The position numbers were made by a program, and so were the translations under genes. From contig JAFRDH010000022.1 of the NCBI GenBank assembly GCA_017403955.1, positions 1 to 64,000 of the forward strand: a DNA stretch of 64,000 nucleotides, read 5' to 3'. The DNA is from Mogibacterium sp. Lineage in GTDB: Bacteria; Bacillota; Clostridia; Peptostreptococcales; Anaerovoracaceae. Within the stretch, counting starts at the first letter, position 1; each line of letters opens with the position of its first letter. This document shows positions 19,110-48,150 of this stretch, piece by piece. The notes under the pieces are model-generated. The model worked only from the letters and a program-made list of their open reading frames with translations, was not told where the DNA came from and searched no databases.

Positions 19110-19121
19110 AAGGAGACCAAG

Positions 19122-22504: not shown

Positions 22505-22511
22505 AGGCCTC

Positions 22512-22830: not shown

Positions 22831-22884
22831 TGAATTTTTGGAATATGCTATATTGCGTATGATGATAATCATTTCCTCTATTTA

Positions 22885-22929: not shown

Positions 22930-23439
22930 ATGGCGAGACATATCATTATTGCAGGGAAACGGCATGTAGGCAAGACGACTCTTGTCAACAGACTGCTTGA
23001 GGGGCAAAGCAGGCCGTTATACGGATTCCGGACAGCAGCCGGGAAAAGCATGAAGAAAGGCTGCAGGTCTTTTTTCATCCATCCTGCCGGTGCTCTGACA
23101 AGAACCGAGACAGAAGAGAATCATATCGGTGACGGCAACGGAATACAGCGCATTGCATATCCTGAAGCATTTGACAATTACGGTGTCAGATGTCTTGAAG
23201 CAGCAGATGACGGGATCATAGTAATGGATGAACTCGGATTCATGGAACAGGATGCAGAGAGATTCTGCAGCAGGGTACTGGAACTTCTGGATGGAGACAT
23301 TCCCGTACTAGCGACTGCAAAGTCCGGACACGATATAGATTTTCTCAACAAGATCCTCAGTCATCCGAATGCGGATGTTTACTACATCACGATCGAGAAC
23401 CGTGATGAACTGTATGAACTTCTGAAAGACAGACTGTGA
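22930..23439 (+). CDS. THEP1-like nucleoside-triphosphatase
   Basis: The 169-residue P-loop protein has Walker A GKRHVGKTT (residues 9-17) and Walker B GIIVMDELGFME with the Asp-Glu pair, followed by an ATAKSGHD sensor-like segment. This matches the THEP1/NTPase_1 family of small soluble NTP hydrolases. Some relatives lie near molybdenum or tungsten cofactor genes, and a role in GTP-dependent metal or cofactor handling is plausible but unproven. It is the first gene of the long plus-strand unit that continues with exported proteins only 18 bases later, so its product may serve the importer. Confidence 0.78.
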   Translation: MARHIIIAGKRHVGKTTLVNRLLEGQSRPLYGFRTAAGKSMKKGCRSFFIHPAGALTRTETEENHIGDGNGIQRIAYPEAFDNYGVRCLEAADDGIIVMDELGFMEQDAERFCSRVLELLDGDIPVLATAKSGHDIDFLNKILSHPNADVYYITIENRDELYELLKDRL

Positions 23440-23457
23440 TTATGCGGGGGAGGATAT

Positions 23458-24918
23458 ATGTATAATCGTGGAATTAGTCTGAAAAGCAATATTACAGCGG
23501 TAATCAGGACCATGCTGATTTTGGCCTTGTTTACCGCTGTTCTTTTATTTTCCCGGAGTTTTGTCTTTGCGGAAGACGCCGGGATCACGGTTCAGCTGAA
23601 AGGAGAGACTGTCAGATCATTCAGCATGGAAGAACTGCAGCAGATAGCAGCAGAAGAGGGAGATCTGTCATATGTTTTCTCGGGATGGAACACATTCCCG
23701 ACTTACAGAAAGTTCACGGTCAAAGGGCCGACGATACGTAAGCTCCTCGAAGAGGCAGGTGTGATAAATGATGTGACTGACACAGGTACTGTCACTTTCT
23801 CAGATGGAGTTTATAAGGTAAGCCTTACCGGAGCTCAGCTTTTCGGAGAGAAAAGATATTGCTATCCGCAAGGTAATCTTGTGGATCCGATTAAGGGGAT
23901 CATACCGGCAGAGTCGTATGATGGTGCAACAGGGATCGAAGCGGTGCTGTCGATAGGACCGAGCAATGAAGATCCGACACTTTACATCGGTCAGGTCGCA
24001 CCGAATGAAGAGAACCGGCCTGCTTTCGTTCACTATCTTAAGTATATCAATATAAGCACCTTACCTGCACCTGTATGCGGAACTGTCGAGTCTGTTCCTG
24101 CAAGCGGATCGGTCTGCGGTAAGGGAAGCGAAATCATTCTGAAAGGAAACCTGAGCAGTCAGGAGTATATCTATTACACATGGGACGAAAGTGCGGCACC
24201 TGACTATGGCAGTGTGATGTACAATAGCGGTGCCAATCAGGGAATTGACACGATCCCTGTTCTTCCGGACAAATACGGCATTTTCCATCTGAGTGTGAAA
24301 GTCAAGGGGTATGGCAAACAGGATGGTGATGTCCAAGTATTTGAGTTCAAAGTATTGCCGGATGCCCCTGTGGGCGTGAAAGCTGTTCCTGCATCCTATC
24401 ATTCAGCTAAAGTCACATGGAACGGCACAAGTGATGCGAGCGGATATAGAATCTACAGAGCTTTGGGTTCGGGCACTCCTGTTTTCTATAAAGAAGTCGG
24501 GCCAGGGGTCCTGTCCTTGACAGATACAAACCTGAATACCGGAACTGCATATACCTATCAAATCACGTCTATCGTAGATCAGTACGGGACTTCTTGGGAA
24601 AGTCCTTGCTCGCTGAAAGTAAGCGCCAGACCGGCATTGACAAAACCTACCGTCAAACTGACTGCCAGGAAGAAGCAGGTGACCGTTAAGTGGAGTAAGG
24701 TTTCTGGTGCAAGCGGATACGTGATCTACAGATCAACCAAAAAGTCATCCGGATTCAAGGCTGTGAAGACAATCAAGAGCGGAAAGACTGTAAAGTTCGT
24801 AAATAAAAAACTCAAGAAAGGCAAGAAATATTATTTCAAAGTCAGAGCATACAGAACCGTAAGCGGAAAGAAAGTCTACGGAAGCTATTCAGCAGTAAAA
24901 GCTGCAAAAGCCAAATAA
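23458..24918 (+). CDS. Exported protein with a sulfite-oxidase-fold-like domain and two fibronectin type III domains
   Basis: The 486-residue protein has a signal peptide (basic start, hydrophobic 17-34, cleavage near VFA/ED at about 38). Residues about 42-200 (FSMEELQQIAAEEGDLSYVFSGWN, GPTIRKLLEEAGV, VTFSDGVYKVSLTGAQL) resemble the YedY/sulfite-oxidase beta fold without its metal-binding Cys. Residues about 205-300 look like a chitobiase-type beta domain. Residues about 300-395 and 396-486 are FN3 domains; the last is extremely Lys-rich (KKLKKGKKYYFKVRAY), consistent with binding to anionic wall polymer. No LPXTG anchor is present. The gene lies between the NTPase and the giant surface protein. 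Confidence 0.7.
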   Translation: MYNRGISLKSNITAVIRTMLILALFTAVLLFSRSFVFAEDAGITVQLKGETVRSFSMEELQQIAAEEGDLSYVFSGWNTFPTYRKFTVKGPTIRKLLEEAGVINDVTDTGTVTFSDGVYKVSLTGAQLFGEKRYCYPQGNLVDPIKGIIPAESYDGATGIEAVLSIGPSNEDPTLYIGQVAPNEENRPAFVHYLKYINISTLPAPVCGTVESVPASGSVCGKGSEIILKGNLSSQEYIYYTWDESAAPDYGSVMYNSGANQGIDTIPVLPDKYGIFHLSVKVKGYGKQDGDVQVFEFKVLPDAPVGVKAVPASYHSAKVTWNGTSDASGYRIYRALGSGTPVFYKEVGPGVLSLTDTNLNTGTAYTYQITSIVDQYGTSWESPCSLKVSARPALTKPTVKLTARKKQVTVKWSKVSGASGYVIYRSTKKSSGFKAVKTIKSGKTVKFVNKKLKKGKKYYFKVRAYRTVSGKKVYGSYSAVKAAKAK

Positions 24919-24979
24919 ATGATTTGTTATTCATTACACCAATCAGTGTGGGTATTGTTATTGATAAAAGGAGGAAAGT

Positions 24980-27900
24980 ATGCAAGCCGGATTGAAATGG
25001 AAGACCGCAGCTTCGAGACTTCTGGTCGCTTTGATAGCAGTTGCGATGATCTTCACAATGACTCCAACGCTTGGCATGACAGCCTATGCGGAGGACGGAG
25101 CAGGATCGGAGACACAGACTCCGGTACTCGTAGTTACAGGTCAGGGTGTTCTTGGCAACGGGGGCGTATATAGCGCTGAAAACGTTTCCCGCGAAAGATC
25201 CTATACTCTGGATGAATTAAAAGAATTTGGTGATGACTATGTTGTTTACAGCCAGAAGTACTCAGCAAAGAAATCTAAGGATCCATTTGCAGAGAACTAT
25301 TTTCTGGTAGACGGAGTCAAATTAGCAGCTCTCCTCGGAAAAGAGGAAAGCGCTGTAGATGACGATGTCTTTGTGTATGCGACTGATGGCTATTATGTTC
25401 AGTTCCTTCATGACGCACAATATGTAAACGGAAGGACGAAGACCGTAGGACTGGAAAACCCAAGATATTTCTATGATCTCAGTACGAAAGAAAAGGGTGA
25501 ACAGGTTCCTGCAGTAATAGGATGGGCAGATGTCAATACCGGGCTCACAGATGGTTCGACTCCGGAAAAACTTCCACCGGGCAAGCCTGAGGCTCTCGGA
25601 TTTCTCAGACTGTACTGCGGCCAACTTGATGCAGAAGGCGGTGGTGCTGCAGACATGAACCAGTCTCTGTTCAATGGTAATAGCGTAGATGCCCAAGTCA
25701 ATAAGATCCAGGAAGGCGCTGCTGTAAGCGAGACGGCACTTACAGTAGGCAGTAATACCTACACTCGTGCTGACGTTCTTATGATGCCGTTTGCTGATGC
25801 AAGTTATACATATCTGAATTCCAAAAATGTGGAAATCACGGATTTTGTCCGCGGAGTGCCGATGTCGGTCCTCCTGGATGGATATAACGATACTGATGTT
25901 GTGACATTCTCATCAGCCGATGATTATCCGGTAAAAGCAAGCGGATATACTGTGAAGCAGCTTATAGATAATGACTATATGCTTGCTTACGAGGCAGGAA
26001 GCAGTGCCTCAGAATTCGCAGGTGTCTATGACACCGCAAAAAATGATCCGTCAATATACGGATTCTTCCGCCTGTATGGCGCTGATGAAAACGGAAAGCC
26101 TGCAAAGATGGTAGACAATATCACAGTGACCGCGGCTTCCGGTGAAGATTATTCCAACAGTCCGTACAAGCATATCACCAATGGAGGACAAGGTGGAGAT
26201 TCGCCGTATAATATCGATTCGATTACCGGTGCTACACTGACAGTAGAAGGACCCGGCGTGAAGTCAAGTGTTCCTGTATCTGTTCGTGATCTCGAAGGCA
26301 GAGATGCCGGAATAAAGAGAGCTGATTATACTGATAAGCGTGACGGCAGTGATATAGCGAGGACCTACGAGGGTATTGATCTGCACTTCATACTTAATAA
26401 CATGACAAGCGGTGATAATGGTATCAAGCTGACAGACAAAGCTCAGAAGGTGCTGATCAAAAACAGAAACCGCAAAACTATTGCTGAATTCACAATGGAT
26501 CAGGTCGAGGAAGCTCACAACAGCGGGACTCCGATCTTAGTAGCGTATGGAACATCTCTGACAGACGGAACCAATATACGCCCGTTTGTATTCAACAATG
26601 GTGCAGGGGCAGATCCGCAGCTCGGGAATGAAGATGGCTGCATCAAGCTCGTTTACAATAAAGAATCCATAACGGGGGATACCAACGACAAGTACAATAC
26701 TTTCGGCAATATGGCATATATTTATGTCGCTGAGGCTGATACCCCGGGATACAAGCATGACAAAGCTCCGTATAAGTCACCGGAAATCTCCAATTATCTT
26801 CTGACCGTGACAGGTGAAAAAATCGGACGGGAAGTCAACTATACTGTTGACGAACTCGAAAATATGGTTGAATACGGTGAAGGCGGCGCTCCGGATAATA
26901 ATGGCATGGGATACCGGGATGAGTATAGTCTTGCTAATTCCAACTATTGGTATGTAAATGAATACGAAGGCGTACAACTGTGGAAATTGCTTCTGAAATC
27001 AGGTCTTGATCCGGCTTTGGCCGATGATGATAAGACGATCGTCAGCTCCACAGCAACTGATGGCTATGCTTCTACCGATAAATTCACAGTCAAGCAGGTT
27101 GCCGACCCTGACAGCTTCGGATTCTATGAGAAGAACCCGCTGGATCAGAATGACGGAACATATGAGGGCAATGAAAATATCCGTGAAGGAGATAACGTGG
27201 ACACCGGGGACAAGCTCAGAACAGGATATCCGGTTCTCGTCGCATATGGTGTTAACGGTTATCCGTATGTGGAGAAGAGCTCGCAAGAAGGATATCTCTC
27301 AGGCCTTCAGAATGATGGAGGTCCGCTCCGTATTATTTCCGGAAAACTGAAATACAATCACGCTAACGGATCCAACCAGGCAAAATATCTCGACAAGGTT
27401 GTTGTAGGAGATAACACATATCATTACAGCACTCATAAATACCACAGTAAGGATGTCTACAAGAATCTGGCAAATACAGAGCTCAGTATTCAGATCCTTA
27501 ACGGCCAGAGTGAAGATGCTTCGGCAATTGATAAGGTCACCTATACGATCGGGGACATTGAGAAAAGTATCTATGAGGATCTGACACGTGTCCAGTTGAG
27601 TGTTGCAAAGGTCAAGAACTATTATGGCCAGACTAAAAACGGAAAGGTATTCAGTGATCTCTATGAGGGCATGAATCTCGCTTTCTTCCTGACAGATATT
27701 GTTGAGATCCCGGGATACAAAGGCACGATTACTTTCAGCAACGGTACGGACCAGATAACGATGAATCTGGAGGACGTACTGAAGGCAAAAGGAAGTAATG
27801 CTGCAACAGGAATAGGCGGACTATATCCTGTCATAGCATATGCTAAGAACGGAGCACCGCTCGTAGCTACCAAAAATGCAGAAGACGGTTATGAAAGTGA

Positions 27901-30900
27901 AGTTACGCTTGCAGAGGGCACAGAGTATCAGAACACAATCACTGTTAAAAACAACGGCGGTCCGCTGCAGCTGATTTTCCCGACGATCGACGGAAATGCA
28001 GAGATGTCAGAAAAGACTATCACCGGCATCAACTCGATTACGGTCAACCTGGCAGCTGACAAATACGCACATATCGAGGCGCCGTATGATTCTTACAAGG
28101 ACAATAAGGTCACAATCTCAGGTGAGGGTACAAGGCTGACAGAACCTAAGGACTTTACTGTTTCTCAGCTTGAAGGCAAGCAGACTATTGCATTTACCGG
28201 TGATTACAGCATCCTTGACAGCGAAGGAGCTACCTCGCAGTTAAGATACCGCGGTATCAATTTGTATGCACTGCTTACCTCTACCGCAGTAGGACTCAAG
28301 ACTAATGCTGACAAGGTAATAATTACTACGACAGACGGCAAATCAAAGGAATTCTCACTTTCGGAGATAAGAAATACATACACTAACACTGTCACAGGAC
28401 AGACAGGACTGCCGGTACTCCTTGCTTACGGCAAAGGTATTGCAGGCGGCGAGGATATGGAGGATGGAAAACCTCTGGTAGAAAGCAAGTCAAGTGCCGG
28501 ATATGATAGTAATTACAGCAATTCCGGAGGACCTGTAAGGCTTGTGGTCGGTCAGAAGGATGCTGAAGATGTCAACAGCGGAAACAATCTGAAGTTCGTC
28601 AGCTCCATCGAAGTTACAGGATCTGATATGGTGAGCTGGAACCATAGCGTAAATGATACTTTCAAGCAATATCTTTCTGAAAAAGTTGCAGTTCAGGTCG
28701 TAGACAAACAAGGCACAGAACTGTTCAGCAAAGATTACACTGTGGAAGAAATCGAAGCTAATACATCATTAGTAGAACGTATTTCTGCACAGACCACTCA
28801 GATCAATACATGGGAAGGCATTGATTTCTGGGGATTCATACAGCAGGAGTGCAAGGGTATCAAAGGCATAGAAAATCCTGTTACAATTGATGTAAGAGCG
28901 AACGATGGATATACCAAAGATCTCCGCTCGATCTTTGCTCTTGAAGAACTGCAGAACGGTATCAAGGATGGAACAGAGTACAAACCGATACTCCTCGCTT
29001 ATGCTATAGACGGACTTCCATTGACTACAGGAAATCCAAAACAGCCGACGCAGTTCCCTGACGGTGAAGGTTATGATGCTACTGTCGGAAACAACGGTGG
29101 ACCGATAAGATTGGTCACCCATAAGAATCAGGGTGCATCGCTCTCTTGTGTATCAAGCATAAAGATCACCGTCGGCGAGGGCGGCAGTTCCGATCCTGAA
29201 GAACCTGCTGCATTCACTATCAAAGGACTCGGCTCCGGTGATATCGGCCTTTCGATAGAAGATATCGCTAACACAAAGAACAGCGCAGGTGATGTCGTAG
29301 GAAAGGCCGAAGGCACATATATTACCAAAGGGACCTCCAAGAAGGTAAAGGGCATTCTGCTTAAGAATCTGCTGGCGAATTACGGCGTGAGCATGGATGA
29401 TGCTGTTATCACGCTGCATACTCCTGACGGATTCGAAACCTCAGGTAAGGGTGCTTCATACAACAATATTTCGTTCAAGCAGGCTGCAGATCAGAAATAC
29501 TTCCTAGCATATCAGGAATGGAACGCAGAGGCGAATGAGTGGAAGGATATCGATGATATCGTCAAGAACACAGATGTCCACACAAACCTCAGGATGTACC
29601 GCAATTACTGCGAAGCGAACGGACTGGATAATCAGACAGAATGGCTTGATGAATGCAATAATATTATTGCGATCACTGTTGAACTGCCTGATATGACAGT
29701 ATTCAAAGAATACCCTGTCAACGCTGTTCGGTCCACTTGGATGGACAAAGACGGCACTCTCCTTGTCGGAACATACGGAAGTGGTCTCAATATCAAGAAA
29801 GCCGGAGATAAGGAGTTCACCGTTCTGAATACCAAGAGCGATCCTGCACTCAAGACTAATTTCACTTCTGCTGTTGCAGCAGATGCTGAAGGTGGTATCT
29901 GGGTCAGCCAGAATGCAAGTTATACTGAACCGGACAACAATCAGGGTGTTATGTATATCAAGGATGGAGAGATCACCCAGTACACTGTTGAAGCAAATCC
30001 GGGAACGATTCCGCACAACTACGTACAGGCTATCAAAGTCGATACTGACGGCAAGGTATGGTTCGGATCATTCGGTGGACTTACGATCTATGATCCTGCA
30101 GCCGGTACATGGACGACCTATAATAAGACAGACAAAGACTTCCCTGCTACATCGATCAATACCATAACACTTGATGGCCAGGGCGGAGCATGGCTCGGAT
30201 TCTATCCGGACGGAGCAGGTACAGAAGCAGATCCTTATACAGGCGGATTCTGCTATATCGATAAGGACGGCAATGTCAGCAAGAAGACGACACTCGTCGG
30301 AGAAATGACTTCTGACAATACGACTGACAATACGACGAGCAAACTTGCTCAGGCATGGATACGCAGTATCGCTATCGATAAGAAAGGAACCGTATGGGCA
30401 GTTGCTGCAGGTACTAACCTTGAAGAGAATGAGGGAGGTACGATATTCAAGATCAAGTCCGGGTCGTCAGCACCGGATAACACTTATACCGGTAAAGAAG
30501 TCTTCGGCGATTATCTGAACGGAAGCACAACGACCGAAGTCAGAGTAGTTGCAGTCGACAAGGACGGATCGCTCTGGTTCGGAACATCTGCAGATGGCGT
30601 GCTCAAAGTAGACAATCCGAAGATCAATGCTGAGGGCAAGATGGATGTTTCTGTACAGTACGCTAAGGAGACCGGTTCATGGAGCGCGGCAAACATGAAC
30701 AATGTCTACAGCATAGATTTCTGGAATGACGGAACTGTTTATGTCGGAGCTGCAGGCGGTCTGATGGTACTCGGTGAGGAGCCACAGGGCGGCGGAGATG
30801 AACCAGGAACAGAGCCTACCGGAGATGCAACCGCTGAAGATGCAGCACTGACGATCACCGGAGATGCACTTGCAAGAGACGGATATTTCTCGATCAAGGG

Positions 30901-32311
30901 CATCAAGAACTGGGAAGGCATCAATAAACTGGATGCTACATTCCATACAAAGAATTCTGCAGGAACAGAAGAAGACATCGCAGTTCAGGGTGCAACTCTG
31001 GAGAACATCTTCAATGTCGTAGGACTTGCAGAAGGTGCAGAGATAGATAGTGTAGATATCTTCTCTGCGGATGGAAAGCAGATTACATATACAGCAGAAA
31101 AGGCACTTGGAACAAGCCTTGACGGCAACAAAGCTATGTTCATCTGGACCGAAGGTACTGCCAAAGTCCAGAAGGTCGTAGTCGGACAGTTCGAAGAGGG
31201 CGAAAGCAATAAGGGCCTGTGGGCAAAAGACGCTATCAGGATCGTAGTCAATGCGAAGAGCGGCGACGAACCTGCTGTGGATCCTGCAGCAGTAGCAGAT
31301 GAGATCAGTGCTCTCCCTCAGACAGTCACTGTCGATGACAAAGACGCGATCGAGAAAGCAAGAGCAGACTTTGATGCTCTGACCGATGAGCAAAAGGAAG
31401 AGCTGCCTGCAGGAACTGAAGAGAAACTCCAGGCAGCAGAAGCAAAACTCGAAGCAGCTGAAGCTAGGGCAGCTGCAGAAGAAGCGCAGCAGCAGGCAGC
31501 AGCTGCTGAACAGGCAGCTGCAGAGGCACGCGCAGCGCAGGCCGAAGCAGAACAGGCAGCTGCAGAGGCACAGGCGGCCGCGGAGACAGCAAATCAGAAT
31601 GCCGCAGAAGCACAGGCGGCTCAGGCGGCAGCAGAGGAAGCTGCAGCCAATGCACAGGCAGCTCAGGCGGCAGCAGAGGAAGCTGCAGCCAAGGCACAGG
31701 CGGCGCAGGCCGAAGCAGAAGCAAAACAAGCCGAAGCAGAAGCAGCACAGGCAGCTGCAGAGCAGGCAGCACAGGAGGCAACGACCGGATCCGCTGAGTT
31801 AGTATCAGCAATCAGCGAACTTGCTAATACTGTAGTAGATGCCGCATCTGCAGGTTATACCGCTGCTAAGTACACAGCTGATACATACAAGCCTTATGCA
31901 GAGGCTCTTGAAGCAGCAAAGGCTGTGATGCAGAAGGCAGACGCTACAGTGTCAGAGATGAAGGCAGCAAACGATGCACTTGCTGCAGCTAAGGCAGCTC
32001 TTGTAGAGAAATCAGCTAACACTCTGACAGCTAAGGGCAAGACGATCAAGATCAAGAAAAAGACGATCAAGAAGAAGACTCTGAAGTATGCAGCCAAGAA
32101 AGCATTCACGGTGAGCAAGGCTCAGGGAACTGTGACTTACAAGAAGACCAAGGGCAACAAGAAGATAACAGTTGCCAAGAACGGAAAGATCACCGTTAAG
32201 AAGGGACTTAAGAAGGGAACCTACAAGATCAAGGTCAAAGTCACAGCTGCTGGTAATGACAACTATTTGGCAGGCAGCAAGACTGTCACAGTCACTATCA
32301 AAGTCAAGTAA
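24980..32311 (+). CDS. Giant surface protein with about nine sulfite-oxidase-fold-like domains, a beta propeller and a coiled-coil wall-associated tail
   Basis: The 2443-residue protein has a signal peptide (cleavage near AYA/EDG, about 37). I see about nine related domains, roughly at 45-240, 254-390, 419-600, 604-820, 834-1030, 1039-1215, 1234-1400, 1411-1572 and 1957-2094. Each repeats the order: beta strand, [Y/F]T-x-[DE][DE]L, a G-[VI]-x-L-x-x-L-L segment, a D-G-Y turn, P[VI]L[VI]AY and NGGP[VIL]R[VIL]. This resembles the Oxidored_molyb fold with the catalytic Cys missing. Residues 1574-1930 are a propeller of the ligand-binding sensor type (DKDGTLLVGTYGSGL, DTDGKVWFGSFGGL). Residues 2097-2270 are an Ala/Gln/Glu coiled coil, 2272-2350 a FIVAR-like helix bundle and 2349-2443 a Lys-rich Ig-like domain. 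DSITGAT at 413-419 matches the FMN-attachment motif. The ligand is unknown. Confidence 0.72.
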   Translation: MQAGLKWKTAASRLLVALIAVAMIFTMTPTLGMTAYAEDGAGSETQTPVLVVTGQGVLGNGGVYSAENVSRERSYTLDELKEFGDDYVVYSQKYSAKKSKDPFAENYFLVDGVKLAALLGKEESAVDDDVFVYATDGYYVQFLHDAQYVNGRTKTVGLENPRYFYDLSTKEKGEQVPAVIGWADVNTGLTDGSTPEKLPPGKPEALGFLRLYCGQLDAEGGGAADMNQSLFNGNSVDAQVNKIQEGAAVSETALTVGSNTYTRADVLMMPFADASYTYLNSKNVEITDFVRGVPMSVLLDGYNDTDVVTFSSADDYPVKASGYTVKQLIDNDYMLAYEAGSSASEFAGVYDTAKNDPSIYGFFRLYGADENGKPAKMVDNITVTAASGEDYSNSPYKHITNGGQGGDSPYNIDSITGATLTVEGPGVKSSVPVSVRDLEGRDAGIKRADYTDKRDGSDIARTYEGIDLHFILNNMTSGDNGIKLTDKAQKVLIKNRNRKTIAEFTMDQVEEAHNSGTPILVAYGTSLTDGTNIRPFVFNNGAGADPQLGNEDGCIKLVYNKESITGDTNDKYNTFGNMAYIYVAEADTPGYKHDKAPYKSPEISNYLLTVTGEKIGREVNYTVDELENMVEYGEGGAPDNNGMGYRDEYSLANSNYWYVNEYEGVQLWKLLLKSGLDPALADDDKTIVSSTATDGYASTDKFTVKQVADPDSFGFYEKNPLDQNDGTYEGNENIREGDNVDTGDKLRTGYPVLVAYGVNGYPYVEKSSQEGYLSGLQNDGGPLRIISGKLKYNHANGSNQAKYLDKVVVGDNTYHYSTHKYHSKDVYKNLANTELSIQILNGQSEDASAIDKVTYTIGDIEKSIYEDLTRVQLSVAKVKNYYGQTKNGKVFSDLYEGMNLAFFLTDIVEIPGYKGTITFSNGTDQITMNLEDVLKAKGSNAATGIGGLYPVIAYAKNGAPLVATKNAEDGYESEVTLAEGTEYQNTITVKNNGGPLQLIFPTIDGNAEMSEKTITGINSITVNLAADKYAHIEAPYDSYKDNKVTISGEGTRLTEPKDFTVSQLEGKQTIAFTGDYSILDSEGATSQLRYRGINLYALLTSTAVGLKTNADKVIITTTDGKSKEFSLSEIRNTYTNTVTGQTGLPVLLAYGKGIAGGEDMEDGKPLVESKSSAGYDSNYSNSGGPVRLVVGQKDAEDVNSGNNLKFVSSIEVTGSDMVSWNHSVNDTFKQYLSEKVAVQVVDKQGTELFSKDYTVEEIEANTSLVERISAQTTQINTWEGIDFWGFIQQECKGIKGIENPVTIDVRANDGYTKDLRSIFALEELQNGIKDGTEYKPILLAYAIDGLPLTTGNPKQPTQFPDGEGYDATVGNNGGPIRLVTHKNQGASLSCVSSIKITVGEGGSSDPEEPAAFTIKGLGSGDIGLSIEDIANTKNSAGDVVGKAEGTYITKGTSKKVKGILLKNLLANYGVSMDDAVITLHTPDGFETSGKGASYNNISFKQAADQKYFLAYQEWNAEANEWKDIDDIVKNTDVHTNLRMYRNYCEANGLDNQTEWLDECNNIIAITVELPDMTVFKEYPVNAVRSTWMDKDGTLLVGTYGSGLNIKKAGDKEFTVLNTKSDPALKTNFTSAVAADAEGGIWVSQNASYTEPDNNQGVMYIKDGEITQYTVEANPGTIPHNYVQAIKVDTDGKVWFGSFGGLTIYDPAAGTWTTYNKTDKDFPATSINTITLDGQGGAWLGFYPDGAGTEADPYTGGFCYIDKDGNVSKKTTLVGEMTSDNTTDNTTSKLAQAWIRSIAIDKKGTVWAVAAGTNLEENEGGTIFKIKSGSSAPDNTYTGKEVFGDYLNGSTTTEVRVVAVDKDGSLWFGTSADGVLKVDNPKINAEGKMDVSVQYAKETGSWSAANMNNVYSIDFWNDGTVYVGAAGGLMVLGEEPQGGGDEPGTEPTGDATAEDAALTITGDALARDGYFSIKGIKNWEGINKLDATFHTKNSAGTEEDIAVQGATLENIFNVVGLAEGAEIDSVDIFSADGKQITYTAEKALGTSLDGNKAMFIWTEGTAKVQKVVVGQFEEGESNKGLWAKDAIRIVVNAKSGDEPAVDPAAVADEISALPQTVTVDDKDAIEKARADFDALTDEQKEELPAGTEEKLQAAEAKLEAAEARAAAEEAQQQAAAAEQAAAEARAAQAEAEQAAAEAQAAAETANQNAAEAQAAQAAAEEAAANAQAAQAAAEEAAAKAQAAQAEAEAKQAEAEAAQAAAEQAAQEATTGSAELVSAISELANTVVDAASAGYTAAKYTADTYKPYAEALEAAKAVMQKADATVSEMKAANDALAAAKAALVEKSANTLTAKGKTIKIKKKTIKKKTLKYAAKKAFTVSKAQGTVTYKKTKGNKKITVAKNGKITVKKGLKKGTYKIKVKVTAAGNDNYLAGSKTVTVTIKVK
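31621..31704 (+). repeat. 42-bp tandem repeat in the coiled-coil coding region
   Basis: The block starting TCAGGCGGCAGCAGAGGA at 31621 recurs at 31663, a period of 42 bases, which is 14 residues or two heptads. Shorter imperfect copies extend over about 31430-31790. Such repeats are expected to vary in number between strains. Confidence 0.8.
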
Positions 32312-32332
32312 ATATAACTAAAATCTGCATAA

Positions 32333-32373
32333 CCAACAGCAGCTCTCTCCATACAAGGGGAGAGCTGTTGTGG
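32333..32373 (+). terminator. Hairpin between the giant protein and the ABC importer, likely an attenuator
   Basis: AGCTCTCTCC (32341-32350), loop ATACAA, GGGGAGAGCT (32357-32366) forms 10 pairs, extended by CCAAC/GTTG across a small bulge. There is no real T run, so full termination is doubtful. Partial termination or 3'-end protection would lower importer expression relative to the surface protein. Confidence 0.45.
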
Positions 32374-32409
32374 TAAAATATGGATGATATCATCTTGACA
32401 GGAGCTGCG

Positions 32410-33447
32410 ATGCAGAGAAGCATTACCGGAACTACAAATAAACATACAGGGAGGCTGGTGATACCGGTTCTCTTTGTTGTTTTGCTTGCTCTGATCATGG
32501 CATGCCTGTGCATAGGCAAATATCAGATATCGCCGGCTGAATGCATCAGGATCCTTAGCGGGAAGATCGCAGGAACGCAGCAGACATGGGACGGAATGGA
32601 CGAGAACATGCTCATCGGAGTAAGACTTCCGCGAGTCATGGCTGCAGTCATTGTCGGAGCTGCGCTTGCTCTTTCGGGTGCAGTCTATCAGGGAATATTC
32701 AGGAATCCGCTTGTATCCCCTGACTTTCTCGGTGTTTCGAGCGGAGCATGCGTCGGAGCAGCAGTTGCTATTCTGATGGCTATGCCGTCTGTGATGATCC
32801 AGGTATCAGCATTTGCAGGCGGAATTATTGCAGTGGCAGTCACTATGCTGATCCCGAGGATGCTCAGGAGTGATTCCGGCATCATGCTCGTGCTTGCGGG
32901 AATAATCGTAGGCGGAGCGATGTCATCTATACTCGGATTCATCAAATATATCGCAGATCCAGAGACACAGCTTGCCGCTATAACTTACTGGCAGCTCGGA
33001 AGCTTTGCCTACGTAGACAACAAGGCTGTAGTCAGCATACTTCCGCTGAGCATAATAGCCGCTGTGGTCCTTCTTGCTATGTCGTGGTGGATCAACATCC
33101 TTTCGCTTGGCGAACAGGAAGCCAAAAGCCTCGGAGCAAGGGTCAATGTCATGCGTGGGATCTGTATCGTCTGTTCGACAGTGCTCACAGCGGGTGCTGT
33201 CTGCATATCCGGAACGATAGGATGGGTCGGTCTTGTCATACCTCATTTCGGAAGAATGATCGCAGGATCAGATAATAGAGTATTGCTGCCGGCATCGATG
33301 ATCATAGGCAGTATTTTCATGCTTTTTGTAGATACAGTGACAAGGATCGCAGGACCGGCGGAAATGCCGGTGAGCATACTGACCGGCCTTATCGGAGCAC
33401 CGTTCTTCGCATGGCTTCTGTACCGTCAGCGTCATATTTTGAGATAG
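32410..33447 (+). CDS. FecCD-type ABC importer permease
   Basis: The 345-residue protein has about ten hydrophobic helices and the BtuC/FecCD pattern: VRLPRVMAAVIVGAALALSGAVYQGIFRNPLVSPDFLGVSSGA and GTIGWVGLVIPHFGRMIAG. The family imports iron chelates, haem, cobalamin and, in MolB, molybdate or tungstate. The frame is open from 32380, but ATG 32410 has AGGAG 5 bases upstream. The ATPase and binding lipoprotein genes follow directly, giving a complete importer in the order permease, ATPase, binding protein. Confidence 0.92.
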   Translation: MQRSITGTTNKHTGRLVIPVLFVVLLALIMACLCIGKYQISPAECIRILSGKIAGTQQTWDGMDENMLIGVRLPRVMAAVIVGAALALSGAVYQGIFRNPLVSPDFLGVSSGACVGAAVAILMAMPSVMIQVSAFAGGIIAVAVTMLIPRMLRSDSGIMLVLAGIIVGGAMSSILGFIKYIADPETQLAAITYWQLGSFAYVDNKAVVSILPLSIIAAVVLLAMSWWINILSLGEQEAKSLGARVNVMRGICIVCSTVLTAGAVCISGTIGWVGLVIPHFGRMIAGSDNRVLLPASMIIGSIFMLFVDTVTRIAGPAEMPVSILTGLIGAPFFAWLLYRQRHILR

Positions 33448-33453
33448 AGCCGC

Positions 33454-34242
33454 ATGGATAATTTGATTTATGAAGTAAGCAACATAACATTCAGATACCC
33501 CGGCTACGAACGCAACGTGCTCGCCGGAGCCTCTCTTACTTTGCGAAAAGGAGAGATACTCTGCATTCTCGGACCGAATGGCGCAGGCAAAACAACACTT
33601 TTGTCATGTATGGCGGGGTTGCTCAAACCTCTGTCCGGAACGATAAAGCTTTGCGGCAAGGACATAAGCGGCATGAGCGAAAGAGAGATCGCAAAGCTCA
33701 CCGGTTTTGTTCCTCAGCAGCATATACCGGCTTTCGACTACAGCGTCCTTGATTTTGTCCTCATGGGAAGAGCACCGCATACCGGGATATTCAGCAGACC
33801 GGGTGCAGAAGAGAAAGCGCGCTGCCTTGAAGTTCTTGAGAATATGGGACTTGGGGCAATTGCTGATAAATCATATCTGGATATCAGCGGAGGCGAGAGG
33901 CAGCAGCTTCTTATAGCCCGCGCAGTCATACAAAGTCCCGAAGCTATTTTGTTCGACGAACCGACTGCTCACCTTGATTACGGCAATCAGCACCGGACGC
34001 TTCGCAGGATCAAACAGATGGCTTCTGAAGGATATTCTGTCGTCATCACTACGCACAACCCGGATCATGCCCTTCTTCTCGGAGATAAGGCAGCGATCGT
34101 CAGCAGGGACGGCTCTGTCATCCAGGGGACAAGTGAAGAGATCCTTACTGAAGAAAGACTAAGCAGCGTCTACGGAATGGATATAAAGATAAGATACATA
34201 GAAGAGCTTGGGAGGACAGCATGTCTGGTGCCGGGATTATGA
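33454..34242 (+). CDS. ABC importer ATP-binding protein (FecE/BtuD type)
   Basis: The 262-residue ATPase has Walker A GPNGAGKTTL, a Q-loop (TGFVPQQH), signature LDISGGERQQL, Walker B AILFDEPTAHLD and the switch His in TTHNPDHAL. It powers the adjacent FecCD-type permease. Its start is 6 bases after the permease stop, and its end overlaps the binding-protein gene by 22 bases, which implies coupled translation. The length is normal. Confidence 0.95.
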   Translation: MDNLIYEVSNITFRYPGYERNVLAGASLTLRKGEILCILGPNGAGKTTLLSCMAGLLKPLSGTIKLCGKDISGMSEREIAKLTGFVPQQHIPAFDYSVLDFVLMGRAPHTGIFSRPGAEEKARCLEVLENMGLGAIADKSYLDISGGERQQLLIARAVIQSPEAILFDEPTAHLDYGNQHRTLRRIKQMASEGYSVVITTHNPDHALLLGDKAAIVSRDGSVIQGTSEEILTEERLSSVYGMDIKIRYIEELGRTACLVPGL

Positions 34243-35315
34243 GCAGATTCAGGAATAGGTCTATAGCACTCATCCTCATTTCGTTCCTGATACTGTCTTC
34301 TGCTATGCTCGCAGGATGCAGCAAAGACAGTACACCCGGAAATGGGCCCGATCAGGATTCTTACGGAACGATAGTTTCGGAGACAGGTGAAGAACTCACT
34401 GTCATTGATCAGGCGGGAAGGGAAGTCACGGTAACCAGAGATCCTGAATCGATAGCTCTCTGCTACAGGGTCGTCATAAGATTCCTGATCAATCTCGGAG
34501 TTGGCGACAGGATCACCGGAATAGGCAAATCCGAAGCGTTTCTTGAGGAAGTACAGCCATCATTAAAAGATTGTACTGATGTCGGCAAGGGGGTCGCGGA
34601 TATAGAAGCCCTTGCAGAACTTAAGCCTGAACTGTTCATCCATAAAGCCTCGGACACTGAGACTCTGGAGGCTGTTCAGAAGATAGGCATTCCGTCGATC
34701 GGTATAAATGTCGAGACTCCTGAAGATATGATCGTTGCGGTCGATCTGCTAGGCAAAGTATGCGGAGCAGAAGAAAAGGCACAGCAGATCGCAGAGTATT
34801 ACAGGAACAGCATCAGCAGGTCAGAAGAGATGACCTCTCAGATAGATGAAGGTGAGAGGAAAACTGCCATTGTCATGGGGTCTTCAATAGGGAAGGTCGC
34901 TGACGGCTCAATGCTGCAGGGCAGGATGCTTGAAACAGCCGGTGCGGTCAACTGCGCCGGAGAACTGAAAGCAACTGAACTATGGCCTAATGCCGGAACA
35001 GAACAGATCTTCAGCTGGGATCCCGATTATATCTTCATTACAGGCAGCGAAGGGAGAGTCTATTCTGCAGAAGATATATATAATGACCCTTCATGGTCAG
35101 AACTCAAGGCAGTAAAGAACAAACACGTGTTGACTATCCCGTCAGAGAAGGACTCATGGGAGTTCCCGGGAGTGCTGAGTGCTCTTGGGATCGAGTACAT
35201 GATATCTGCCATGTATCCTGAACTGATCAGTGAAGAAGAACTGGAAAAAGATGTCGGAGCGCTCTATGAACTTGCTTACGGCAGAGCATATACAAGAGAA
35301 GAATTAGGTTATTGA
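34221..35315 (+). CDS. ABC importer substrate-binding lipoprotein (BtuF/FecB fold)
   Basis: The 364-residue lipoprotein has a signal sequence ending in a lipobox (SSAMLAGC, C33), a short linker and a type III periplasmic-binding domain (TVIDQAGREVTVTRDPESIALC, GVGDRITGIGKSE, VADIEALAELKPELFIH, EDIYNDPSWSELKAVKNKHV). The fold is that of cobalamin, haem, siderophore or molybdate/tungstate (MolA) receptors. The ligand cannot be read from the sequence. The position between two tungsten-enzyme operons makes tungstate or molybdate a reasonable guess. The start has GGAGG 5 bases upstream. Confidence 0.9.
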   Translation: MSGAGIMSRFRNRSIALILISFLILSSAMLAGCSKDSTPGNGPDQDSYGTIVSETGEELTVIDQAGREVTVTRDPESIALCYRVVIRFLINLGVGDRITGIGKSEAFLEEVQPSLKDCTDVGKGVADIEALAELKPELFIHKASDTETLEAVQKIGIPSIGINVETPEDMIVAVDLLGKVCGAEEKAQQIAEYYRNSISRSEEMTSQIDEGERKTAIVMGSSIGKVADGSMLQGRMLETAGAVNCAGELKATELWPNAGTEQIFSWDPDYIFITGSEGRVYSAEDIYNDPSWSELKAVKNKHVLTIPSEKDSWEFPGVLSALGIEYMISAMYPELISEEELEKDVGALYELAYGRAYTREELGY

Positions 35316-35338
35316 TCAAACCTTGCAGATGAGATCGA

Positions 35339-36715
35339 ATGGATAAGAGTACAAAGAGATCAACGGGAATACTAGCATGTCTTGCAGCAGCATTTCTTGT
35401 GCTGTCACAGGTGCTGTGGTTCCTTCCTGTACTCACTTTTGCCGAAACTGCGGGAGATGTCCTTGTAGTCAGAGTCCAGTACTATGGTGAGATCGGAGAC
35501 AAGGTCCGCGAGAAAGCACGTTTTACAAGGGATGAGCTTGAGTCGATGGGCGCGGCGACTTACTATTACTCGAATATCACAAGGGTCGGTACAGTTATGT
35601 CTATGGCTGCATACGGACCTGAAGTAATGACAATAATTGAGAATGCCGGAATAGATCCCGGCTCTATTCAGAATGTCACATTCAGGACAACGGATGGATA
35701 CACGCGTAACTTCACGGTCGGAGGGCATCTGACGGCCACAAAGTACTACTATCCGAATCTGTCCTCATGTTACGAGAGGAATGAAGAGGGGAATGCTTTG
35801 ACCCCTCTCGAAGGCGCGACTGAAGGACGTGAGGTCGTTCCTGCTATTCTGGCTCTGGAGTTCGGCGAGAGCAAAGAACCGGGGATATTCGCTGAAGATC
35901 TTCCGATGAGCACCAAGAAAACCTACAGATTCTGTATGGGACAGTCAGATCTGACCGAGGGGAAGATGACAAATCCTAACGATGGCGGGGGAGATATCTC
36001 ATCCATGGAATCCTGCCACAGCATCTACGGTATCGATATTACTCTTGCGGGTTCCCCGATATACGGCATGAGTCTTGATCTCGATGATCCTGAGATCAAA
36101 GTCGGCAGCATGAAGAAGATCTCTGTCAGCTTCGATGTAGAAGATGCATTCGAAGGAGCTTTTACCGCAGAAGATCTCGAATGGATCAGCAGCGATCCGT
36201 CTATTGCGGAAGTAAACGAAAAAGGCGAGGTAACTGTCCATAAAAACGGGACAGTGACTATTACAGCTATAGCGCCTGACGGGACAACAGCATCTATCAC
36301 AGTGAACGGAACAGGGGAAGAGAAAGAACCTGATAAAGACACAAAGACGGAGACCAAGCCTTCGAAGAAGTCCAATACCACCAAGACCCAAAAGGACGAC
36401 AACAAAAAGACAAACAACGATACCGTAGTCAAAAAAGAAGACAAGAAAGAAGTTAAGAAAGAAGATAAGGCAGAAGAAAATGCCAAAGCGAGGCCTGTTT
36501 CTCTAAACATCCATGAGATCGTAATAGGGGATATGGTAGTAGAGGAGACCTCCGGAACTGAAGAATTCAGAAACAAAATGGCAGATGATGCAACGCCTCT
36601 TGATGCAGCGCGCACGTATGACCCTGCGGCAGCCGCAGGAACTGCAGCCGGAGCGGGCGCGCTTTGCGGCATGGGAGCAATAGCCAGAATTATAAGTTAT
36701 CGCAGGAATTTTTAA
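35339..36715 (+). CDS. Membrane-anchored surface protein with a sulfite-oxidase-fold-like domain and a bacterial Ig-like domain
   Basis: The 458-residue protein has a signal peptide (helix about 10-30, cleavage near TFA/ETA). Residues about 35-235 (ARFTRDELESMGAATYYYSNI, VTFRTTDGYTRNFTVGG, VVPAILALEFGE) repeat the fold seen in the giant protein. Residues about 240-320 are a Big_2-like Ig domain (WISSDPSIAEVNEKGEVTVHKNGTVTITAIAPDG). A charged, Lys/Glu/Asp/Thr linker of about 60 residues follows, then a short hydrophobic stretch with a basic end (CGMGAIARIISYRRNF) that could anchor it in the membrane. It precedes the ExbB-like channel by 11 bases, suggesting that the two membrane components touch. 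Confidence 0.68.
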   Translation: MDKSTKRSTGILACLAAAFLVLSQVLWFLPVLTFAETAGDVLVVRVQYYGEIGDKVREKARFTRDELESMGAATYYYSNITRVGTVMSMAAYGPEVMTIIENAGIDPGSIQNVTFRTTDGYTRNFTVGGHLTATKYYYPNLSSCYERNEEGNALTPLEGATEGREVVPAILALEFGESKEPGIFAEDLPMSTKKTYRFCMGQSDLTEGKMTNPNDGGGDISSMESCHSIYGIDITLAGSPIYGMSLDLDDPEIKVGSMKKISVSFDVEDAFEGAFTAEDLEWISSDPSIAEVNEKGEVTVHKNGTVTITAIAPDGTTASITVNGTGEEKEPDKDTKTETKPSKKSNTTKTQKDDNKKTNNDTVVKKEDKKEVKKEDKAEENAKARPVSLNIHEIVIGDMVVEETSGTEEFRNKMADDATPLDAARTYDPAAAAGTAAGAGALCGMGAIARIISYRRNF

Positions 36716-36726
36716 AGGAGTTACAT

Positions 36727-37401
36727 ATGTCAGAAGCTGTAAAAGATGTGCTGAGGGTGATAAGTGAATCCTTGCAGATCCCGACGATCATAATCCTGAT
36801 CATACTGATGGCAATTGCGATCGTAATGCTTGGCGGAATTATTGCTGAGTATTTCACTGACCACAGAAAGCTGAAAACAAGTATACCTGATCTGATCGAT
36901 ATACTGCAGAACAAAAGCTCATCGGAAATGATGAAGTCTATTGAGTATGCCGAAATACTTAAACGGCAGAAGGCAGCGCTGATTCATCTGCTGAGAAGGA
37001 TCTCTTATTCGGATAATACTCGTGAAGCACTTGCACGCCAGCTGATCGCAGATGAAGAGGCGAGATACAGGAAGATCACCAAGATCACGGATATTATAGC
37101 CAGAGTAGCTCCTATGTTCGGACTCATGGGAACACTCATCCCGCTCGGGCCGGGGCTTATAGCGCTAGGACAAGGCGATACCAAAACTTTGTCGGATTCA
37201 CTTCTGATCGCGTTCGACACAACAGTAGCCGGACTGATCACAGGTGCTGTTGCATATGTTGTCTCCGGGATCCGCAAAAGCTGGTACGAACAGTATATGG
37301 TAGCGCTTGAAACGCTTATGGAGACTGTCCTTGAGGAACAGGCGAACGAACGTATGAAGGCATATATGAGACTCAAAGAGAAGGAAGAGTCAGGTAGATA
37401 G
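36727..37401 (+). CDS. MotA/TolQ/ExbB-family ion channel protein
   Basis: The 224-residue protein has one N-terminal membrane helix (about 17-38) and two near the C-terminal half (about 128-150 and 163-186), with the family motif VAPMFGLMGTLIPLGPGLIALGQGD and AFDTTVAGLITGAVAYVV. Such proteins form an ion-driven motor with an ExbD/TolR/MotB-like partner. In diderms they energise outer-membrane transport, but this organism appears to be monoderm. The frame is open from 36664. ATG 36727 has AGGAG 6 bases upstream and is chosen. The DUF2149 gene 9 bases downstream is the likely partner. Confidence 0.88.
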   Translation: MSEAVKDVLRVISESLQIPTIIILIILMAIAIVMLGGIIAEYFTDHRKLKTSIPDLIDILQNKSSSEMMKSIEYAEILKRQKAALIHLLRRISYSDNTREALARQLIADEEARYRKITKITDIIARVAPMFGLMGTLIPLGPGLIALGQGDTKTLSDSLLIAFDTTVAGLITGAVAYVVSGIRKSWYEQYMVALETLMETVLEEQANERMKAYMRLKEKEESGR

Positions 37402-37410
37402 GAGGCTGTC

Positions 37411-37722
37411 ATGAGACTTAGCAAAGGGAAAGGTCTTCGCGTCAGATATCAGGACGATGACTTCAGCCCTATGGAGGGCGTGGGCAATATGGCTGATGCC
37501 ATGCTGGTTTTCGCGTGCGGTATCCTGCTTGCTCTTATCATAAGCTGGAATGTTGAAATTACCGAGCGCGGCGAGATCAACCATGATATCGGCAATAAAT
37601 ATGAAGTAGAAGGGATCGGTGACGAAGCCGTTGAAACAGTTGATCCGGCCGAAGGCCTTGTGGAGATGGGAAAAGTCTACCGCGACCCTGAAACAGGAAA
37701 ATACTACGTCATAGAGGACTAA
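37411..37722 (+). CDS. DUF2149 family protein, probable ExbD/TolR-like partner
   Basis: The 103-residue protein has a short cytoplasmic N-terminus (RYQDDDFSPMEGVGNMADAM), one membrane helix (about 28-47, MLVFACGILLALIISW) and a small acidic extracytoplasmic domain. This is the topology of ExbD/TolR, and the DFSPMEGVGNMADAMLVFACG block matches DUF2149, which accompanies MotA/TolQ/ExbB proteins in methanogens and some Clostridia. An Asp near the start of the helix could serve in ion translocation. The function is inferred from pairing and topology. It has AGGAGG before ATG. Confidence 0.8.
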   Translation: MRLSKGKGLRVRYQDDDFSPMEGVGNMADAMLVFACGILLALIISWNVEITERGEINHDIGNKYEVEGIGDEAVETVDPAEGLVEMGKVYRDPETGKYYVIED

Positions 37723-37746
37723 AGATCACAACGAGAACCGGACAAA

Positions 37747-38235
37747 ATGAAGATACTGAAAAGGACATCAGTCCTCGTATTATTGGTAATAGCGGTGATG
37801 ATGCTGACCGCGTGCGGCACGGATGAGATTGATATCAGTTCGTACGCTGATCAGCAGATAGTTCTGACCGGCATAGAAGATGAGCCTGTCGTCATTTCGA
37901 TTGCCGATCTGAAGGCCATGAAGTGCAAGACACTCAAGGCTGAGAGTACGAGCGATAAGATCGGCAAAGTCAAAGCCACCGGCCCCGAACTCGGCACTGT
38001 GCTTGAGAAGTACGGCGCTAAGAAAGAAGACTTCTCCAAGATGATCATCTGCGGCTCAGATGAATATGATGTGAAGCTGCTTAAGGACTACATCACAGAG
38101 CACGATATCTATCTTGCTTTCGGAATAGACGGTCAGCCTCTTGATGAGGAGAGCCTTCCATGCAGGATCATAATCCCAAACTCAGACTCAGCGTACTGGG
38201 TCCGCATGGTCACCTCAATAGAATTCATAAAGTGA
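37747..38235 (+). CDS. Lipoprotein with a single sulfite-oxidase-fold-like domain
   Basis: The 162-residue lipoprotein has lipobox MLTAC (C23). The mature part gives the cleanest view of the fold repeated in the large surface proteins: VLTGIEDEPVVISIADLKAM, KATGPELGTVLEKYGAK, DIYLAFGIDGQPLDEESLPCRIIIPNSDSAYWVRMVTSIEFI. This parallels the Oxidored_molyb domain (ADLKAL ... GVPLxxLL ... LAYxxNGxPLP..G.PxRLVVP ... WVKWLTxIEV). The conserved Cys that binds molybdenum is not in its expected place, so catalysis is unlikely and ligand binding more likely. It ends the unit, just before a bidirectional terminator. Confidence 0.75.
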   Translation: MKILKRTSVLVLLVIAVMMLTACGTDEIDISSYADQQIVLTGIEDEPVVISIADLKAMKCKTLKAESTSDKIGKVKATGPELGTVLEKYGAKKEDFSKMIICGSDEYDVKLLKDYITEHDIYLAFGIDGQPLDEESLPCRIIIPNSDSAYWVRMVTSIEFIK

Positions 38236-38255: not shown

Positions 38256-38299
38256 AAAAGCCCTCCGGGGGGGTCTGAGAACTCACCGGAGGGCTTTTT
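38256..38299. terminator. Bidirectional terminator between the surface operon and the second AOR operon
   Basis: AAAAGCCCTCCGG (38256-38268) and CCGGAGGGCTTTT (38286-38298) form a 13-bp perfect stem with A and T runs on both strands. It ends both convergent operons. Confidence 0.92.
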
Positions 38300-48148: not shown

Positions 48149-48150
48149 AG

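Follow-up and report, generated by a model that had tools for sequence, protein, structure and literature searches.

A candidate capture-and-import system for the tungsten/molybdenum pterin cofactor, built on sulfite-oxidase-like surface proteins, in a tungsten-enzyme island of Mogibacterium

What could exported sulfite-oxidase-like proteins, a FecCD-type ATP-binding cassette (ABC) importer and an ExbB-like channel be doing together in one operon between two tungsten-enzyme genes? The question is raised by positions 22930-38235 of a 64,000-nucleotide stretch of Mogibacterium sp. DNA (contig JAFRDH010000022.1, assembly GCA_017403955.1), the whole of which is called the window here. The source genome measures 2.2 Mb in 25 contigs and is 95% complete, and the closest named relatives of the operon's ExbB protein come mostly from Mogibacterium metagenome-assembled genomes of the ruminant gut. 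Ten co-directional plus-strand genes span the operon in the list of open reading frames (ORFs); an earlier sequence-only reading was right about the direction but had counted nine. We consider it rather probable that these genes encode an energised surface capture-and-import system for the pterin cofactor of tungsten and molybdenum enzymes, that is, the tungsten cofactor (Tuco) and possibly also the molybdenum cofactor (Moco).

The sulfite-oxidase-like domain, abbreviated OXM, occurs in three exported proteins and one lipoprotein of the window. The lipoprotein (37747..38235, 162 aa) matches Oxidored_molyb at 1e-10 with 41.9 bits against a cut-off of 24. A profile iterated from its family found nine domains in a giant surface protein of 2443 aa (24980..32311; aa 13-181, 228-384, 400-539, 573-781, 816-988, 1017-1189, 1204-1366, 1388-1566 and 1939-2092), which also carries a Reg_prop propeller (8.2e-15). 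The same profile found one domain in OXM-FN3 (23458..24918, 486 aa; OXM at about nt 23485-23886, 6e-23; fn3, 2.4e-9) and one in OXM-TM (35339..36715, 458 aa; OXM, 1e-38; Big_2, 2.9e-10), in which a charged linker and a C-terminal hydrophobic segment follow the two domains. The domain E-values of 6e-11 to 1e-38 are flattered because the profile had already absorbed these sequences, and its signal-peptide part also pulled in two DUF2149 proteins. After trimming of the signal peptide, the profile still found eight domains in the giant protein (aa 816-988 was not recovered) and one each in OXM-FN3 and OXM-TM. In the reverse direction, a profile built from giant-protein domains only and run against 448 proteins matched the relatives' lipoproteins at 3.4e-8 to 8.7e-7, but did not recover the window's own lipoprotein. 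The giant protein of one relative matches Oxidored_molyb at 1.6e-13. Against a shared fold stand the lack of any Oxidored_molyb match at E<=1 in the window's giant protein (Pfam) and one shallow profile-profile comparison of its domain 4 with the lipoprotein family, which was not significant (probability 2.2%). The best solved matches of the predicted lipoprotein structure are PruR pterin-binding proteins and sulfite oxidases (Foldseek against the PDB, with re-ranking that took in Foldseek's own hits only). The earlier proposal that the three exported proteins and the lipoprotein share one fold is thus supported by sequence profiles, and for the lipoprotein, whose model was the one obtained, the predicted structure shows the expected fold rather than an unrelated one.

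The lipoprotein family has an invariant Trp, for which Trp160 of PruR is a candidate counterpart. The sequence-only reading also described the fold as lacking the metal-binding Cys. In agreement with this, seven of nine domains of the giant protein and 67 of 100 aligned OXM domains contain no Cys, while the mature part of the lipoprotein has three. In the alignment, Cys reaches at most 7 of 99 rows in any well-filled column, and the Mo-ligating Cys of sulfite oxidase and MsrP was not found in the giant and aligned OXM domains.

Several other features of the giant protein and its relatives were observed. The motif DSITGATLT (aa 413-421; 26216..26242, +) belongs to a class that we take to be flavinylation-like, and a weak FMN_bind match under the cut-off was present, so that the giant protein may carry covalent flavin mononucleotide (FMN). 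Motifs of the SITGATLT type were found in 12 other OXM gene models (8.7 versus 0.36 per 100,000 aa, with duplicate-locus models included), the conserved form being PYNxDxITGATLTxEGPG, and ApbE genes lie inside the OXM operons of L046, L068, L074 and L078. The C-terminus (31300-32311) consists of an Ala/Glu/Gln-rich region followed by a Lys-rich tail, perhaps a wall-spanning or attachment segment. Elsewhere OXM is joined with SLH, Shr-like haemoglobin-interacting and Fn3_assoc domains (L097:3731-7405, L122:5238-7859), and the NCBIfam model diheme_GEGP also matches the OXM-SLH proteins of L097 and L122.

The importer comprises a FecCD/BtuC-type permease (32380..33447, 355 aa; PF01032, 4.6e-85), an ABC transporter ATPase (33454..34242, 262 aa; ABC_tran PF00005, 6.5e-30) and a substrate-binding lipoprotein (SBP; 34221..35315, 364 aa; Peripla_BP_2 PF01497, 7.2e-27). 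Against solved structures the SBP matches 4hn9 (1.8e-35), 4ovk (3.2e-21), HI_1472 (3psa, 1.6e-14), which we take to be MolA, and BtuF (3e-4). By sequence similarity the importer thus pairs a FecCD permease with a MolA-like SBP, as MolABC does, although 4hn9 and 4ovk are nearer to the SBP. The operon opens with a THEP1-like NTPase (22930..23439, 169 aa; NTPase_1 PF03266, 1.6e-21) and includes, ahead of the OXM lipoprotein gene, an ExbB/TolQ/MotA-like channel (36664..37401, start probably internal; MotA_ExbB PF01618, 2.8e-12) and a DUF2149 protein with a single hydrophobic segment (37411..37722; PF09919, 3.7e-9). The Pfam matches of these six genes and the Oxidored_molyb match of the OXM lipoprotein are above curated cut-offs, and the NTPase, importer, channel and DUF2149 protein named in the sequence-only reading were all matched.

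The ExbB family profile aligns with E. coli ExbB/TolQ at 95% probability (E 1.9e-8, hhalign). DUF2149 has an invariant Asp in its hydrophobic segment (27 sequences), which aligns with Asp25 of ExbD over 19 columns at 2.7% probability. DUF2149 as a proven ExbD was rejected as lacking statistical support, since no ExbD match at E<=1 was found in the PDB either; it appears ExbD-like by position, a likeness that rests on one aligned Asp. By analogy, OXM-TM may be the force transmitter for ExbB, a TonB with reversed topology. In Bacteroidota haem operons the ExbB-like and DUF2149 pair, HmuU/HmuV, is read as the power source of import in the available parts of two reports (PMC10434189, PMC12583661).

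DUF2149 was found in 28 of 297 genomes of the order, and relatives of most of the ten proteins stand in the same order in eight other genomes of the family (L031, L033, L039, L040, L046, L047, L048 and L050). An ExbB-alignment scan of named genomes returned at least 571 relatives, of which the best 80 were kept. A near same-strand upstream gene was present for 87 of 94 ExbB genes and encoded OXM in 62 of these 87, counts that are not dereplicated and include some duplicated genomes; most of the upstream OXM proteins end, by eye, in a single hydrophobic segment and a basic tail. The trio of OXM-TM, ExbB and DUF2149 is the core of the system. It is surrounded by FecCD importers in Mogibacterium-like types and by energy-coupling factor (ECF) transporters in others, the latter recognised beside OXM operons by Pfam in L099 (Syntrophomonas), L122 (Petroclostridium) and L130 (S component) and by eye in L097, L102, L111 and L118. 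Co-occurrence of the gene set in other genomes, the check named in the sequence-only reading, is therefore borne out, with the set recurring in relatives and its core across Clostridia. Molybdenum or tungsten genes lie nearby in 15 of 29 FecCD-type loci versus 2 of 37 control stretches, which came from 13 of the genomes (Fisher, p=2.8e-5, inflated by relatedness, as several of the FecCD loci belong to Mogibacterium and owe the neighbouring aldehyde:ferredoxin oxidoreductase (AOR) gene to common descent). The corresponding counts were 8/33 for OXM without FecCD, 1/17 for neither, and 0/5 for the CobN type; this comparison was dereplicated by ExbB and left out 14 loci whose ExbB was lost by ORF picking, four of them with such genes.

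Some of these loci differ from the window type. In L034, L035, L036 and L038 the protein upstream of ExbB has the same C-terminal hydrophobic segment and no detectable OXM, and the genomes have neither a MoaC nor an AFOR_N match; these loci likely serve another ligand. A second FecCD-ExbB type (L032, L044, L045 and L052) has FdhD, MobB-FdhD, DUF364, methyltransferase, XdhC or a short AOR-like protein nearby, and no Moco/Tuco riboswitch (RF01055) was found in it. A TrmO-FmdE fusion gene lies directly 3' of the ECF transporter in the Syntrophomonas OXM locus (L099:13823-14650). The blastp label DUF4430 on Syntrophomonas-type proteins seems to be SLH-derived and was discarded, as Pfam found no DUF4430 in the scanned L097, L099 and L122.

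Scans of 29 OXM loci detected RF01055 in 14, at 45-71 bits against a cut-off of 36: L039, L040, L047, L048 and L050 in a batch of six loci, L070 and L072 in a batch of eight, L097 (twice), L109, L111 and L120 in a batch of seven, and L093, L098 and L101 in another seven; L037 is an OXM locus with none. The distance to the next gene was 29-689 nt in the 11 loci measured. In L072 this gene is THEP1-like, 29 nt away and first after the riboswitch; in L097 one copy precedes a gene resembling, by eye, an ECF S component; in L111 it precedes a protein without a detected OXM domain; and in the remaining measured loci it precedes an OXM gene. Visual inspection of nine aligned examples shows eight without P3, and this P3-less form was linked to Tuco by Regulski et al. 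in 2008 (PMC2408646, available in part). ExbB-DUF2149 loci without detected OXM had RF01055 in none of six and a cobalamin riboswitch in two of six (CobN type and DUF4430 type), which gives 14/29 versus 0/6 for RF01055 (Fisher, p=0.06, affected by relatedness). The two cobalamin riboswitches accompany ExbB-DUF2149 operons with CobN/DUF2162 or DUF4430 (L041:13072-13250 and L042:13281-16955), the latter domain being presumably transcobalamin-like, which suggests that these operons are a B12/corrinoid version of the same motor. We read the riboswitch pattern as one ExbB-DUF2149 motor serving different cofactor receptors. A cobalamin reading for the window type was abandoned, as none of the 29 scanned OXM loci has a cobalamin riboswitch. 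The ligand classes of the sequence-only reading (pterin cofactor, oxyanion or tetrapyrrole) are thus narrowed, on indirect evidence, to the pterin cofactor, which we prefer, or an oxyanion, because the lipoprotein model matches PruR and sulfite oxidases and because RF01055 occurs in the relatives' OXM operons; a tetrapyrrole is disfavoured for the OXM type because cobalamin riboswitches were seen only with OXM-less operons.

The preference for the cofactor over an oxyanion comes mainly from carriers that appear unable to make it yet have AOR and the riboswitch. MoaA had no match in 14 of 55 carrier genomes, and in these 14 MoaC matched in none and MoeA was without a match in 13; MoaC was present in all six MoaA-positive genomes checked alongside, and MoeA occurs three times each in G000 and G264. 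Seven of the 14 deficient carriers have AOR: G187 (two), G200 (three) and G220 (one), and beside the operon in L068 (there cut by the contig end), L072, L078 and L085. In G200 the sequence is gapless from NuoE, past AOR2 and a MoeB-like gene, up to unrelated genes, and it contains none of the MoeA genes present in the window's island. Five of the 14 (G187, G304, G315, G317 and G323) have the riboswitch in the operon locus (L039, L072, L093, L098 and L109), and two, G187 and G304 (L039, L072), have both riboswitch and AOR. If a carrier has a Moco/Tuco sensor and tungsten enzymes yet no way of producing the cofactor, uptake from an external source is to be expected. Completeness is known for four deficient genomes (99, 95, 94 and 92%). 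Among family AOR genomes, MoaC is absent from three of ten with the FecCD-type operon versus none of 13 without DUF2149 (Fisher, p=0.07, affected by relatedness). For the window's own genome, an obligate-auxotroph reading was rejected, given that MoaA, MoaC and MoeA are present.

In the window, two of the genome's three AOR genes flank the operon, AOR1 (20296..22272, +; AFOR_N, 2.6e-71) and AOR2 (41734..43539, -; AFOR_N, 1.2e-78). Between AOR1 and the operon lie a small ferredoxin (22274-22504, +) and a MoaD/ThiS-like protein with a GG end (22491-22745, +), both named by eye from their translations. Beyond AOR2 come the MoeB-like cofactor gene ThiF (45035-45712, -), MoeA (48091-49383, +) and MoeA-PBP (49404-51308, +), and farther along the contig MoaC and MoaA and, by eye, ModABC-like, XdhC-like and Mo-hydroxylase genes. 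AOR is present in all nine window-type genomes, and in seven it lies no more than about 25 kb from DUF2149. In the window's own genome the TupA/PstS family PF12849 gave no match. TupA was told apart from PstS by a sequence motif that we assume to be diagnostic. TupA-like genes were found in none of the seven window-type genomes with AOR at that distance versus nine of 13 family AOR genomes without DUF2149 (p=0.005), and in two of nine window-type genomes overall versus the same 9/13 (p=0.08; Fisher, affected by relatedness), where nine is a lower bound (ten if the doubtful G022 is counted) because some family hits were unclassified or without a locus. The same-genus genome G259 keeps the island order (AOR1 86%, NuoG-like 88%, AOR2 94% and ferredoxin 95% identical) but is without the operon, having 743 nt between AOR1 and the NuoG-like gene versus about 16 kb in the window; the AOR1-side part of this gap aligns with the window, and a TupA-like gene lies farther on. 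A survey states, in its available part, that TupABC accompanies tungsten oxidoreductases of classes I-IV in virtually all microbes that have such enzymes (PMC13328260).

We propose that the OXM proteins, exported probably by Sec and hence without cofactor, would use a sulfite-oxidase-like pocket to bind extracellular cofactor or a pterin closely derived from it. The cofactor would then pass to the membrane-anchored OXM-TM, whose C-terminal helix would contact the ExbB-like/DUF2149 proton channel, and, as in Ton systems, proton flow would power the release or transfer of the ligand. The OXM lipoprotein and the Peripla_BP_2 lipoprotein would hand the cofactor to the FecCD-type importer, or, in some more distant Clostridia, to the ECF transporter found nearby in its place. 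Inside the cell it would be loaded onto tungsten oxidoreductases, and THEP1 may act in its handling. The sequence-only reading had likewise put forward surface capture followed by transfer to the lipoproteins and the importer, a proposal that agrees with the list of parts and that we regard as supported in part.

A number of observations weigh against cofactor import. Free Moco is unstable (PMC9793310) and the PruR pocket is described as too small for Moco (PMC13259868), both according to the available parts of these papers. The window genome has MoaA, MoaC, three MoeA and, by eye, a ModA-like gene, and so need not import cofactor. Ten of the 14 deficient genomes are of unknown completeness and related genes could be jointly missing from the assemblies, and seven AOR genomes outside the family, one of them 100% complete, have no match to MoaC or DUF2149, so that MoaC loss is not specific. 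RF01055 was not found in the window or the same-genus L228, and 15 of the 29 OXM loci likewise show none, some of them being cut upstream. Syntrophomonas wolfei has at least 15 Moco RNAs according to the available part of PMC2408646, which also mentions an operon of this species with genes of unknown function; given that number, the single match beside an operon in this species (L120) carries little weight. G193 and G278 have a TupA-like gene in addition to the operon, the DUF2149-ExbD profile comparison was not significant, and a Tat-like pattern occurs in 3 of 238 OXM proteins, with no RR within the first 30 residues of OXM-FN3. Finally, the SBP is nearer to the molybdate/tungstate protein MolA than to BtuF, which suits an oxyanion. 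This leads to an explanation that we regard as unlikely but deserving of weight, namely that OXM and SBP bind tungstate or molybdate and that a MolABC-like importer replaces TupABC in tungsten-using Clostridia. It draws on the SBP match to HI_1472, on the complementarity of operon and TupA across genomes, and on MolBC-A, which we assume to be of the FecCD family. MolBC-A is a Type II importer that takes both molybdate and tungstate (PMC4031551), and RF01055 also occurs ahead of molybdate transporters (PMC2408646), as stated in the available parts of both papers. Oxyanion uptake nevertheless leaves unexplained the genomes with operon and AOR, two of them also with the riboswitch, in which MoaA, MoaC and MoeA had no match, since such cells could not convert tungstate to cofactor. 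The nearest solved relatives of the OXM fold bind pterins, and ECF transporters, which usually carry organic ligands or cations, adjoin OXM operons.

Three other explanations seem to us very improbable, to about the same degree. Uptake of haem, iron or another tetrapyrrole by an Hmu-like system of a monoderm would agree with the HmuU/HmuV pair of Bacteroidota haem operons, with the Shr-like_HID domains joined to OXM in L097 and L122, and with a Fur-box-like palindrome ahead of the operon (22858-22876, 4/19 mismatches), but no CobN match was found in the 95% complete genome and the OXM relatives are under RF01055 rather than cobalamin control. Fur control was itself rejected, as the palindrome is not kept in the upstream stretches of six relatives (at least 7 mismatches). 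The conserved SITGATLT-type motif and the ApbE genes of four OXM operons would fit a surface redox module, in which flavinylated OXM proteins and AOR metabolism exchange electrons and the presence of the importer would be incidental; this is hard to reconcile with a dedicated SBP-FecCD importer and a cofactor riboswitch in relatives, and no haem or Fe-S carrier is found by Pfam among the window operon products. Pterin sensing without import, as in PruR-DcpA signalling, would account for the PruR match of the lipoprotein model but not for the importer and ExbB-like channel, and a GGDEF/EAL or kinase partner is not found by Pfam in the operon's ten products.

As for the operon's borders, the sequence-only reading placed it between a promoter and a bidirectional terminator. 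The terminator hairpin can be read directly from the sequence (stem at about 38256..38299), though it is not among the entries of a pattern scan, whereas the promoter was not borne out, as the scan found 22 sites versus 22.9 expected and singled out none. Upstream of AOR1, at 16134-20270, lie an old-yellow-enzyme/pyridine-nucleotide oxidoreductase/short-chain dehydrogenase fusion and a tocopherol-cyclase-like protein. In the same-genus L224, L225 and L228, too, AOR1 is accompanied by a relative of at least one of the two.

Taken more broadly, cofactor import may represent the first bacterial scavenging system for the intact W/Mo cofactor, a proposal to which we give even chances. It would consist of monoderm surface OXM receptors, a Ton-like ExbB-DUF2149 motor, an inverted TonB-like OXM protein and a FecCD or ECF importer, with which some gut Clostridia would run tungsten enzymes without MoaA, MoaC, MoeA and TupABC; since the motor would also serve transcobalamin-like DUF4430 proteins or CobN proteins controlled by cobalamin riboswitches, it would be a chassis for cofactor harvesting in general. 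No bacterial Moco/Tuco importer was among the matches listed in a partial literature collection, in which five papers mention DUF2149. If true, the cofactor would be a shared commodity in gut communities, AOR genomes without TupA and cofactor-biosynthesis genes would be explained, DUF2149 and the sulfite-oxidase-like surface proteins of Clostridia would gain a function, and uptake could be tested directly in strains unable to make the cofactor.

Acquisition of mature Moco from outside has a parallel in the dietary uptake of Caenorhabditis elegans, as far as the available part of that report shows (PMC9793310), although this is an animal and no genes are shown to be shared with the window system. 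The OXM lipoprotein resembles PruR in being, by predicted structure, a small exported domain of the sulfite oxidase fold. PruR, the periplasmic pterin-binding protein of Proteobacteria, is described in the available part of its source as a single domain that takes small pterins and signals to DcpA (PMC13259868), whereas OXM domains repeat in surface giants and are tied to an importer and an ExbB-like channel, and neither DcpA nor DTB has a counterpart with GGDEF/EAL or kinase domains among the ten products. With the Bacteroidota haem uptake system HmuYRSTUV, again judged from partial sources, the operon shares the ExbB-like and DUF2149 pair (PMC10434189, PMC12583661), but its ten genes include no TonB-dependent receptor, HmuY or CobN/HmuS; OXM proteins are there instead, and relatives have RF01055. 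TupA-like genes of TupABC sit in the AOR islands of operon-less relatives, while the window's SBP belongs to another binding-protein family and its system has a surface module, which TupABC does not. MolBC-A is similar in its binding protein (HI_1472, 1.6e-14) and in the FecCD-type permease, as MolB presumably is, but we know of no surface OXM proteins, ExbB or DUF2149 in MolABC. The proposed motor can also be compared with TonB-ExbB-ExbD: the operon has an ExbB homologue, a DUF2149 protein whose membrane Asp is conserved and, as third component, a membrane-anchored protein with a charged linker; the TonB helix is N-terminal, whereas that of OXM-TM is C-terminal and its head is an OXM domain, in a host expected from its Mogibacterium relatives to have no outer membrane.

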